Source of the DNA: Planctomycetota bacterium
Lineage (GTDB): Bacteria > Planctomycetota > MHYJ01 > JACQXL01 > JACQZI01
Reading direction: 5' to 3'
Assembly (NCBI GenBank): GCA_016207825.1
Contig: JACQZI010000038.1
Location: forward strand, 1 to 64,000
Length of the DNA stretch: 64,000 nt
A program made the position numbers and the translations under genes. Under the pieces are notes generated by a model. It was given only the letters and a program-made list of their open reading frames with translations. It did not search any database and was not told where the DNA came from. The stretch's first letter is position 1, and each line of letters begins with the position of its first letter. Of the stretch, positions 56,090 to 60,007 are shown piece by piece.

Positions 56090-57211
56090 TTATTTGCCGC
56101 CGCCGCGTTTCCTGAATCCATCCATGACAATACGGCAGACATCCTCGGTCGAATCCGGTCGGCCGATTCGGGCGGCGTTCCTGCCCATCTCTTTCAGGCG
56201 CGGTTTATTCTTACATATATACTTAACTTTCTGGAATACTTCTTCCGGGTCCCGGGCGAAATATCCGGCGCGGTGTTTGACGATATAATCGCGGTTGTAT
56301 ATTTCCTGGCCCGGATACGGGCGGAACATGATAACCGGAAGCCCGTAAGCGAGCGATTCGGAAACCGTAATGCCGCCGGCCTTGCCGATAACCACATCGC
56401 TCACCTTCATTATCTCGTTCACCTCTTTGATAAAACCGATTGGGACAATCTTTTTGTTTTCGCCCTTTAGTTTCTGCATCTTGGAAAGTATTTCCTTGTT
56501 GCCGCCCAGTAGGACAACCTGAACAGGAATCTCCACAAGTTTCCGGCAGATGGATTTAATATCGCTCCAGCTCTGGCCTCCACACATCAGGACCACCGTG
56601 AAGATACCATCCAGTTTATATTTCCTGCGGACGACCGCTTTATCAACGGGCTTGGCAAAGGCAAGCCTTAAAGGGATGCCGGTAACCTTTATCGCCTTAT
56701 CATCAATCTTATATTCGGCCGTCAGGTATTTTTTCACTTCATCCGAAGGCACGCAATAGACATCCGTATTCGGATGGACCCACTGGGCGTGGACGCCGAA
56801 ATCCGTGACAATCGTAGCGGTAAAAGGCTGGTGCTTAAGGACAAGGCTCGGTATGACCTTGGCGGGCGCCGGGTAGGCAAAGACCAGGATATCGGGCTTG
56901 GTCCTTTGGAGCCATTTCTCCGCCTTAGTGCCGCCGATTGTGCCCAGTTTCCCACCCAGCCTGCCGGCAAACATTTTATCGCTCGCGCTGAAGAAGAGTC
57001 CATAAACCCAGGGAAAGTGTTTGGTGCTTTCTTCGTAGAGCTTGCGCAAGACCTTATCGCGTTTCGGGGCGAAGCGTTTCATGTAATCTATGATTTTCAC
57101 CTCAGCATGGTTTGGGTAATATTTACGGAATCCGTCCGCCAGCGCGCCGGAGACGGCATGGTGCCCGCCGCCGTATGACGCGGTGAAAATGACAATCTTT
57201 ATTTTACGCAT
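56090..57211 (-). CDS. MGDG-synthase-like glycosyltransferase
   Basis: 373 residues from MRKIKIVIFTASYGGGHHA at 57211; the longer frame (57253) adds non-typical residues. The N-terminal domain SYGGGHHAVSGALADGF and C-terminal GKAGGITVSESLAYGLPVIMFRPYPGQE place it in the GT28 MGDG synthase/processive diacylglycerol glucosyltransferase group. Probably makes glycolipids in the inner membrane. Confidence 0.88.
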   Translation of the reverse strand: MRKIKIVIFTASYGGGHHAVSGALADGFRKYYPNHAEVKIIDYMKRFAPKRDKVLRKLYEESTKHFPWVYGLFFSASDKMFAGRLGGKLGTIGGTKAEKWLQRTKPDILVFAYPAPAKVIPSLVLKHQPFTATIVTDFGVHAQWVHPNTDVYCVPSDEVKKYLTAEYKIDDKAIKVTGIPLRLAFAKPVDKAVVRRKYKLDGIFTVVLMCGGQSWSDIKSICRKLVEIPVQVVLLGGNKEILSKMQKLKGENKKIVPIGFIKEVNEIMKVSDVVIGKAGGITVSESLAYGLPVIMFRPYPGQEIYNRDYIVKHRAGYFARDPEEVFQKVKYICKNKPRLKEMGRNAARIGRPDSTEDVCRIVMDGFRKRGGGK

Positions 57212-57350
57212 TTGGCTCTCAGTATATAATTCCAGCGCGGCTAATGCAACCAAAATATAAAAAAATATAGAAAAAATATCGCCTCTCCCTAACTTCTTAT
57301 ATTTTTAAATGTTACATAGAAAATATTTTTCACCTAATCTTTTTTTTCTC

Positions 57351-57403
57351 TTGACAACACTACAAATAGATATATAATACCCGCTTTACACAATATATAG
57401 TGG
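57351..57403 (+). promoter_or_regulatory. nrdJ promoter with two NrdR boxes
   Basis: TTGACA (57351-57356), 16-bp spacer, TATAAT (57373-57378). NrdR-like box 1, ACACTACAAATAGATA (57357-57372), fills the spacer; box 2, ACACAATATATAGTGG (57388-57403), covers the probable start site. They are 31 bp apart, three helical turns, as in known NrdR operators. NrdR represses ribonucleotide reductase genes when (d)ATP is high. Confidence 0.85.
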
Positions 57404-57676
57404 TCTTTGACATTTGATTTTGTGTGTTGCTGTCATGCTGTCCCGTCCCGTCTGACCGCCTACGGCGGGCTTTTCCGCCAAAGGCGGACCGGCCTCCGGC
57501 TGGGGCGAAAACCGCATTAATAAATTTGCACCATGATTTTACACTTGAGTTTCCCGCTTAACCGATTGATATAAAACACAGTGGGGGATGCATTCGAGGC
57601 GTGACGACATGTTCAGTAAGCACACAATATTGATAGTCGCAATTGAAAGGTAGTGCAATACTACCGGGAGGATTTT
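57404..57676 (+). promoter_or_regulatory. Long structured leader of nrdJ
   Basis: About 290 nt separate the predicted start site and the start codon. Hairpins are at 57456-57468 (CCGCC/GGCGG), 57474-57488 (TCCGCC/GGCGGA) and 57649-57665 (GGTAGT/ACTACC), the last abutting the GGGAGG ribosome binding site (57666-57671). A cis-regulatory RNA is possible; a cobalamin riboswitch consensus was not recognised. Confidence 0.5.
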
Positions 57677-60007
57677 ATGGCACGGGTGTTATATATTGAA
57701 AAGGAATCGGAGAGCGACCTTTCCAAAACGGCCGAAGGATGGCTCATTCCGAAGGTATCCGAAAACGCGGCGCGGGTGCTGGAACGCCGGTATTTAAGGA
57801 AAAACGAGGCGGCCGAATGCTGCGAGAACATAAGCGAGATGATTATGCGCGTGGCGCGCAACATCGCGCAAGCCGAGCTCACCTTTAACAAAGACGCCGA
57901 CTCCGAGAAATGGGTCAGGGAATTCTACAACATGATGGCGCGGCTGGAATTCGTCCCCAATTCGCCCACCCTGATGAACGCCGGGCGCGAGCTCCAGCAG
58001 CTTTCCGCCTGTTTCGTCCTGCCTGTGGGCGATTCGATTGACAGCATCTTCGAAATAGTAAAGAATACCGCGCTTATACATAAAAGCGGCGGCGGGACCG
58101 GATTTTCTTTCACCCGCATCAGGCCCAAGAACGATATCGTTTCCACCTCGCACGGATTCTCCAGCGGGCCGATTTCTTTCATGAAGGTATTCAACGAAGC
58201 GACCGAGGCGATTAACCAGGGCGGATTCCGCCGCGGCGCCAATATGGCCATCCTTAATTACGACCACCCGGATGTCATGGATTTCATCACCGCCAAACAG
58301 GACGAGGCCCAGCTTAATAATTTCAACATCTCCGTGGGCATCTCGGAAAAGTTCATGGAGCTGGTGCAAAAAGACGAGGAATACGAACTCTTAAACCCGC
58401 GCACCAAGGAAACTGTCCGTAAGATAAAGGCGCGCAAGGTCTTTGATAAAATCGTGGAAAAGGCATGGGAATCCGGCGAGCCGGGAATCGTTTTCCTGGA
58501 CCGCCTGAATAAAGATAATCCCACCCCGCATATCGGGATGATTGAAAGCACTAACCCTTGCGGAGAACAGCCGCTCCTGCCTTATGAGGCTTGTAACCTG
58601 GGTTCCATAAACCTGGGAAAAATGATTAACCATCAGGGAATAGATTTTGAGAAGCTGAAATCAGTCGTCCACAAATCAGTCCGCTTTTTGGATAACGTGA
58701 TAGAAATGAACCGGTACCCGTTATCGCAGATAGAAAAGATGGCGCGGGGAAACCGCAAAATCGGGCTGGGCGTCATGGGCTTCGCGGATTTACTCATCAA
58801 GCTCGGAGTCCCGTATAATTCCGAAGAAGCGCTGGCTATCGGCGAAGAAATAATGAAATTCATCTCGGTCGAATCCAAGAAAGCCTCGGAAGCTCTGGCC
58901 GTGGAACGGGGCTCTTTCCCCAATTTCAAGAACAGCGCCTTTGACGTAAAAGGCGAGCACCCGATAAGGAACGCGACGACCACGACCATCGCGCCGACCG
59001 GCACCATCAGCATCATCGCCAACGCCTCAAGCGGAATCGAACCGCTTTACGCAGTCTGCTTTACCAGGAACGTCCTGGACGGGACAAAGCTGGTGGAAGT
59101 CAATCCGATTTTCGAAGCGATTGCCAAGAAGGAAGGATTTTATTCCAAGGAGCTGATGGAAAAGATATCCCAAAACAGCACGATACAGGAGATGAAGGAA
59201 ATCCCGGCGGAAATCAGGAAGCTTTTCGTCACGGCGCACGATATTTCGCCCTCCTGGCACATCAGGATGCAGGCGGCTTTCCAGAAATACACGGACAACG
59301 CCGTTTCCAAGACGGTTAATTTCAAGAACAGCGCCACGCAGAGCGACGTTTCCGAGGTTTATTTCCTGGCATACAAGCTCGGATGCAAAGGCGTGACCGT
59401 TTACCGCGATGGCTGCCGCCAGCAACAGGTCTTAAGCACCAAATCAACCACGGAAAAGGCGAAAGAAGAAGCCGAGCCGGGACAGGTCGCCTTAAACCCC
59501 ACTCCGCGGCCCAGGCCGGATGTCACATACGGCACGACCAAGAAGCTAAAAACCGGCTGCGGCAACCTTTATGTCACCATCAACTACGATGAAAACGGGA
59601 AACCGTTTGAACTCTTCAGCACCATGGGAAAAGCGGGCGGTTGCGCGGCATCACAATCAGAAGCTATTTCCAGGCTGATTTCATTTACCCTGCGCAGCGG
59701 CGCCAACCTTAAAGAAGTCATCAAGCAGCTTAAAGGAATTACCTGCCACTCGATTGCCTGGAGCAAGGGCGGAAAGATTCTTTCCTGCGCGGACGCCATT
59801 GCCAACGCCTTGGAAGAAGCCGCGGACAATTTGCCGATGAACGGGATGAACGCCAAGGCGGCACCGGCAACGGGAACGGCATCACCTAAAAAGCCCAATA
59901 AATCAGTCAGCTTAAGGAAAGGCGCCTGCCCGGATTGCGGCGGCTCACTTTCTTACGAAGAAGGCTGCATGAGGTGCTATTCCTGCGGATTCTCCGAATG
60001 CGGGTAA
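57677..60007 (+). CDS. nrdJ: Adenosylcobalamin-dependent ribonucleotide reductase (class II)
   Basis: 776 residues from the ATG at 57677, six bases after GGGAGG; eight more codons are in frame upstream. Reduces ribonucleotides to deoxyribonucleotides without oxygen. Active-site stretch LQQLSACFVLPVGDS and NPCGEQPLLPYEACNLGSINL with radical-site cysteine are present. The C-terminus carries a zinc ribbon (CPDCGGSLSYEEGCMRCYSCG) characteristic of NrdJ-Z enzymes. No N-terminal ATP cone. NrdR control is predicted upstream. The 3' end overlaps the convergent DUF6498 gene by 31 bp. Confidence 0.97.
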   Translation: MARVLYIEKESESDLSKTAEGWLIPKVSENAARVLERRYLRKNEAAECCENISEMIMRVARNIAQAELTFNKDADSEKWVREFYNMMARLEFVPNSPTLMNAGRELQQLSACFVLPVGDSIDSIFEIVKNTALIHKSGGGTGFSFTRIRPKNDIVSTSHGFSSGPISFMKVFNEATEAINQGGFRRGANMAILNYDHPDVMDFITAKQDEAQLNNFNISVGISEKFMELVQKDEEYELLNPRTKETVRKIKARKVFDKIVEKAWESGEPGIVFLDRLNKDNPTPHIGMIESTNPCGEQPLLPYEACNLGSINLGKMINHQGIDFEKLKSVVHKSVRFLDNVIEMNRYPLSQIEKMARGNRKIGLGVMGFADLLIKLGVPYNSEEALAIGEEIMKFISVESKKASEALAVERGSFPNFKNSAFDVKGEHPIRNATTTTIAPTGTISIIANASSGIEPLYAVCFTRNVLDGTKLVEVNPIFEAIAKKEGFYSKELMEKISQNSTIQEMKEIPAEIRKLFVTAHDISPSWHIRMQAAFQKYTDNAVSKTVNFKNSATQSDVSEVYFLAYKLGCKGVTVYRDGCRQQQVLSTKSTTEKAKEEAEPGQVALNPTPRPRPDVTYGTTKKLKTGCGNLYVTINYDENGKPFELFSTMGKAGGCAASQSEAISRLISFTLRSGANLKEVIKQLKGITCHSIAWSKGGKILSCADAIANALEEAADNLPMNGMNAKAAPATGTASPKKPNKSVSLRKGACPDCGGSLSYEEGCMRCYSCGFSECG

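Follow-up and report, generated by a model that had tools for sequence, protein, structure and literature searches.

A predicted NrdR operator of paired boxes at the promoter of a class II ribonucleotide reductase gene in a Planctomycetota bacterium

As described in PMC9110341, PMC12051234, and PMC12176259, NrdR carrying dATP together with ATP or ADP assembles as a tetramer that grips two boxes spaced by about three helical turns, introducing a sharp bend into the DNA and shutting off the promoter; with ATP as its ligand, NrdR builds larger oligomers, and these fail to bind DNA. Boxes separated by a gap of 14-17 bp are reported to be bound by the NrdRs of four bacteria (PMC12051234), and D15 and R17 are given as the specificity residues of the protein (PMC9110341). 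The nrdJ locus of a Planctomycetota bacterium resembles these systems: in the window (the whole 64,000-nucleotide stretch analysed, contig JACQZI010000038.1) two 16-bp boxes lie upstream of a reductase gene and overlap the predicted polymerase site, the genome encodes nrdR, and the 15-bp gap between the boxes falls within the 14-17 bp range, the alternative class being 24-27 bp (PMC12051234). We put at about 90% the probability that the paired boxes are the NrdR operator of nrdJ, the sole reductase gene found in the genome, with predicted binding and dATP-dependent repression; binding, nucleotide switching, and repression are what we infer from published work on the Streptomyces and E. coli NrdRs.

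The predicted promoter consists of a -35 hexamer TTGACA (57351..57356, + strand, as are all features below) and a -10 hexamer TATAAT (57373..57378) separated by 16 bp, exactly as initially annotated; together (57351-57378) they match at 12 of 12 positions, the one other promoter listed in a scan of 57200-57720 matching at 10 of 12, and in many relatives the -35 hexamer stands in a matching position with respect to box 1. The whole 16-bp spacer is box 1, ACACTACAAATAGATA (57357..57372); box 2, the near-palindrome ACACAATATATAGTGG (57388..57403), follows nine bases after the -10 hexamer, so that the box starts are 31 bp apart. Scored against ACACWATATATWGTGT, which we take to be the NrdR box consensus, box 1 matches at 11 of 16 positions, which is weak, and box 2 at 15 of 16, in agreement with the claims that the spacer is itself an NrdR-like box and that a second, better box lies exactly 31 bp downstream; the same scan of E. 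coli nrdHIEF gives a pair score of 24 at spacing 31. Two further claims of the initial annotation held in part. The transcription start site can be predicted from the position of the -10 hexamer, and box 2 begins ~1-4 bp past the start so predicted; it is therefore close to the start site, but abuts rather than straddles it. The compact repressor architecture is present as described, but because the nrdJ promoters of relatives often keep both the pair and the box within the spacer, it is a common layout of the gene family and nothing special.

The scan for paired boxes suggested in the initial annotation finds the pair not only at this site but also, at a score of at least 22 and a spacing of 31 or 32 bp, upstream of nrdJ in 50 of 79 named relatives (the best 80 of 575, less L033, whose match lies at the edge of a contig and begins only at residue 78). 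At the same threshold, pairs were found in none of 79 gene-internal controls and none of 68 distal stretches of 500 bp, and at a threshold of 20 in 60 of the 79 upstream regions, 1 gene-internal control, and 2 distal stretches; the G+C content of the gene-internal controls may exceed that of promoters, a difference addressed by Markov-sampled copies of the site's own upstream region. When single spacings are considered at threshold 22 in these 79 best relatives, 29 regions carry a pair at 32 bp, 19 at 31, 19 at 34, and 14 at 30, the 34- and 30-bp pairs probably being shifted registers of the same palindromes. Adding 23 whole-genome nrdJ loci gives 102 regions, 57 of which carry a pair unmatched by any of 100 Markov-sampled copies, and TTGA lies 5-8 bp before box 1 in 44 of these 57 (39 of 49 named, 5 of 8 whole-genome). 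Only 8 of the 23 whole-genome phylum loci have a clear pair, and three of the 23 (L115, L133, and L134) have their start at residue 74-85, so that part of their true upstream sequence was missed, L115 being separately read directly. In 37 of 52 regions (49 named loci and 3 plus-strand whole-genome loci) box 1 is flanked by the two hexamers of the best promoter-like match, and in 9 of those 37 the -10 hexamer shares the last base of box 1. The relatives are not independent, since related genomes are included (several Syntrophaceae, for example). The box-in-spacer layout recurs in nrdJ relatives from several phyla, and is common rather than special.

The pair also tends to accompany NrdR. Among the same 79 best relatives, it is present at threshold 22 in 45 of 64 NrdR-positive genomes versus 5 of 15 NrdR-negative genomes (Fisher p = 0.0096; p = 0.0033 at threshold 21 and 0.029 at 23). 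Nineteen of the 64 NrdR-positive genomes have no pair at threshold, and the five genomes with pairs in which no NrdR was detected (L061, L063, L072, L077, and L097), perhaps explained by incomplete assemblies, count against a strict rule linking pair and NrdR. Within the phylum, where 54 of 59 genomes yielded an NrdR, three relatives (G003, G007, and G054) have both NrdR and a promoter in which a 16-bp box separates the hexamers and a second box follows; their pairs score 24, 21, and 23 at box spacings of 30, 31, and 31 bp, respectively. In G002 the promoter is present and the pair is at chance level (17); in G008, from the same order, the promoter has a 16-bp AT-rich spacer and no recognisable box 2; and no NrdR was detected in either assembly (77% and 63% complete, respectively). 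The layout thus tracks NrdR presence across these five relatives, a pattern which with five genomes only is suggestive. The sole same-genus genome (G001, 56% complete) has NrdR and no nrdJ match.

Of the alternatives to an operator with two working boxes, the one that survives best is that box 2 alone is the working NrdR contact, the resemblance in the spacer being a decayed remnant, and that repression is either weak or exerted through box 2 only. In its favour, box 1 forms only 3 of 8 palindrome pairs, has a non-canonical centre (AA rather than AT), and ends in GATA; it also has no T at position 9, which is present in 40 of 40 selected relatives, and no TG at positions 14-15, which is seen in nearly all of the 40, but these column counts lean to the TTGA-box 1 layout because the 40 were selected from the 52 regions as 39 with TTGA adjoining box 1 plus L083, excluding 10 without TTGA and two with 30-bp spacing. 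On the other hand, i) box 1, like box 2, keeps C4 and G13, which by our mapping correspond to base pairs whose inversion cut binding ~50-fold in PMC9110341; ii) the 31-bp phase is kept; iii) box 2 of E. coli nrdAB also has a non-canonical centre, and that pair is reported to bind well (PMC12176259); and iv) tight binding at E. coli nrdHIEF is reported to need both boxes (PMC12051234). We judge the single-contact alternative unlikely, and read box 1 as a candidate weaker box that would act within the pair.

The initial annotation had held that absence of nrdR from the genome would speak against NrdR control. The genome assembly (2.89 Mb in 42 contigs, 97.6% complete) encodes one intact NrdR, the only one above the family cut-off in a profile search (TIGR00244, E 9e-57), with a Zn-ribbon (PF22811) and an ATP-cone (PF03477) both above cut-off, and this objection accordingly falls away. 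The translation has C3, C6, D15, R17, R26-R29, C31, and C34, and its closest solved relatives are the NrdR chains 9fxk and 9gex, to both of which it aligns without gaps. The gene is on a different contig from nrdJ, and autoregulation through a box pair was rejected, no pair above 18 being present in the 500 bp upstream of nrdR. The ATP-cone of NrdR is the only one found in the genome. Searches of the genome found neither an anaerobic reductase (PF13597; the control matched 6 of 14 genomes) nor a class I small subunit (PF00268; the control matched 7 of 14), and a search with NrdJ matched only NrdJ itself; nrdJ is therefore the only reductase gene found. NrdR control of nrdJ is thus supported by the presence of nrdR, the 15-bp gap, and the pair conserved in relatives, with binding predicted. 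It is very improbable that a different regulator uses the palindromes at the nrdJ promoter: binding by NrdR is a prediction, but the box sequence, the phase, the target gene, and the co-occurrence with NrdR all fit NrdR.

How often might such a pair arise by chance? The pair scores 26, the runner-up at spacing 31 in the 64-kb window scoring 20, and none of 2000 copies Markov-sampled from the 500 bp preceding nrdJ attained 26. In a null model of genome size (order-3 Markov, 84 kb of the same genome as training sequence, 20 replicates), pairs of at least 24 numbered 0.0 per strand at spacing 31 and likewise at 32, but this null may be too lenient because the real genome has at least one other pair of 24, at C10:163113. 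A paired pattern derived from the site, which the site matches by construction, has its only genome-wide match at 0 mismatches here and one other at 3 mismatches, the control having 1 match. Across the genome, single boxes at 3 or fewer mismatches show no enrichment (253 and 259 matches versus 311 and 320 for a reversed-pattern control), so that the signal comes from the pairing and location of the boxes and not from isolated loose matches. That the boxes are merely chance AT-rich sequence around a strong promoter is hardly credible, for although promoters are AT-rich, single matches are not enriched, and conservation could not be shown for the other pair of 24, the score at nrdJ was absent from all 2000 randomised copies and relatives have the pair at the same position.

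Two other single boxes with one mismatch occur in the genome. One, at C1:11095, sits in what by eye is an apparent coding stretch and was rejected as an NrdR target. The other, at C10:163113, belongs to a second NrdR-like pair (G000:C10:163113-163159; L160 5114-5160) in which boxes matching at 14 and 10 of 16 positions lie 31 bp apart and sum to 24; it follows a gene that by eye is methyltransferase-like, and precedes a promoter-like TTGACA and a gene for a 137-aa protein (G000:C10:163239-163649). Of 22 genomes searched, 18 contain a match to the protein (its own included, hence 17 others), and Pfam gives none at E up to 0.01; among 7 relatives of the gene, one of them represented by a locus of only 188 bp, no pair above 19 was found at spacing 31 or 32.

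The gene downstream of the operator is, as initially annotated, a class II (adenosylcobalamin-dependent) reductase, matching NF006417 at 1217 bits (cut-off 961) and TIGR02504 at 743 bits (cut-off 400). The best start is the ATG at 57677, which lies 5 bp after a Shine-Dalgarno-like GGGAGG (57666..57671) and gives a product of 776 aa (57677..60007) with a TSCPD domain; a domain search matched no ATP-cone in NrdJ. Four nrdJ relatives at 57-60% identity come from records titled archaea (L057, L064, L105, and L111) in which no NrdR was found, and are possibly mislabelled bins or cases of transfer.

The predicted leader (57385-57676, ~290 nt) has several features of its own. Together with 24 coding bases its folding is somewhat better than that of shuffled sequences (z -2.41; 1 of 100 shuffles did as well), and the predicted fold pairs the end of box 2 with the beginning of the coding region. 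A hairpin at 57649-57665 with a 6-bp stem (GGTAGT-GCAAT-ACTACC) lies directly 5′ of the Shine-Dalgarno-like sequence and includes an alternative GTG start at 57653. A GC-rich stretch at 57431-57512 has segments of 25, 34, and 26 bp in common with three other sites in the genome, and resembles a short dispersed repeat. No Rfam element, a cobalamin riboswitch included, was found in 56900-57900 at E up to 1, and such an element was rejected as a feature of the promoter region.

By analogy with the published systems, control of nrdJ by NrdR would operate as follows. At high dATP, NrdR loaded with dATP and ATP (or ADP) would form a tetramer with one of its two Zn-ribbon dimers on box 1, between the -35 and -10 hexamers, and the other at a distance of three helical turns on box 2, immediately beyond the predicted start site; the bound tetramer would bend the DNA and block RNA polymerase; and when dATP falls, ATP-loaded NrdR would pass into higher oligomers and leave the operator unbound, allowing nrdJ to be transcribed. 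With such an operator, a lineage related to Planctomycetota would join the standard scheme of NrdR regulation, itself a known type of control, as a simple example with one reductase found, one regulator, and one operator. The recurrence of the layout suggests that nrdJ promoters frequently follow a rule whereby box 1 lies within the spacer, and if this is true, NrdR-induced bending could be linked testably to open-complex formation. We regard as evenly balanced the broader proposition that the -35 hexamer, box 1 as the whole spacer, the -10 hexamer, and box 2 make up a conserved nrdJ promoter-operator module across several phyla, in which NrdR would distort the very spacer that RNA polymerase reads, and that in lineages like this one, where nrdJ is the sole reductase found and NrdR the sole protein in which an ATP-cone was found, dATP feedback through an ATP-cone would be left to NrdR alone.

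Three described systems may be compared with this locus. The nrdRJ operon of Streptomyces coelicolor is alike in its class II target, in its pair of 16-bp boxes spaced by some three turns of the helix, and in an NrdR with D15 and R17 (PMC9110341), but nrdR is reported to be co-transcribed with nrdJ there (PMC4409342) and is on another contig here. Pseudomonas aeruginosa nrdJ is likewise class II, and its expression is reported to rise in an nrdR mutant in aerobic culture and not to rise anaerobically (PMC4409342); that organism is described as having all three reductase classes, whereas one class was found here. E. coli nrdHIEF and nrdDG share the 15-bp gap between boxes but encode class I and III reductases on which further regulators are reported to act (PMC12176259), and the nrdHIEF pair, with the score and the 31-bp spacing given above, is recovered by the scan used here.
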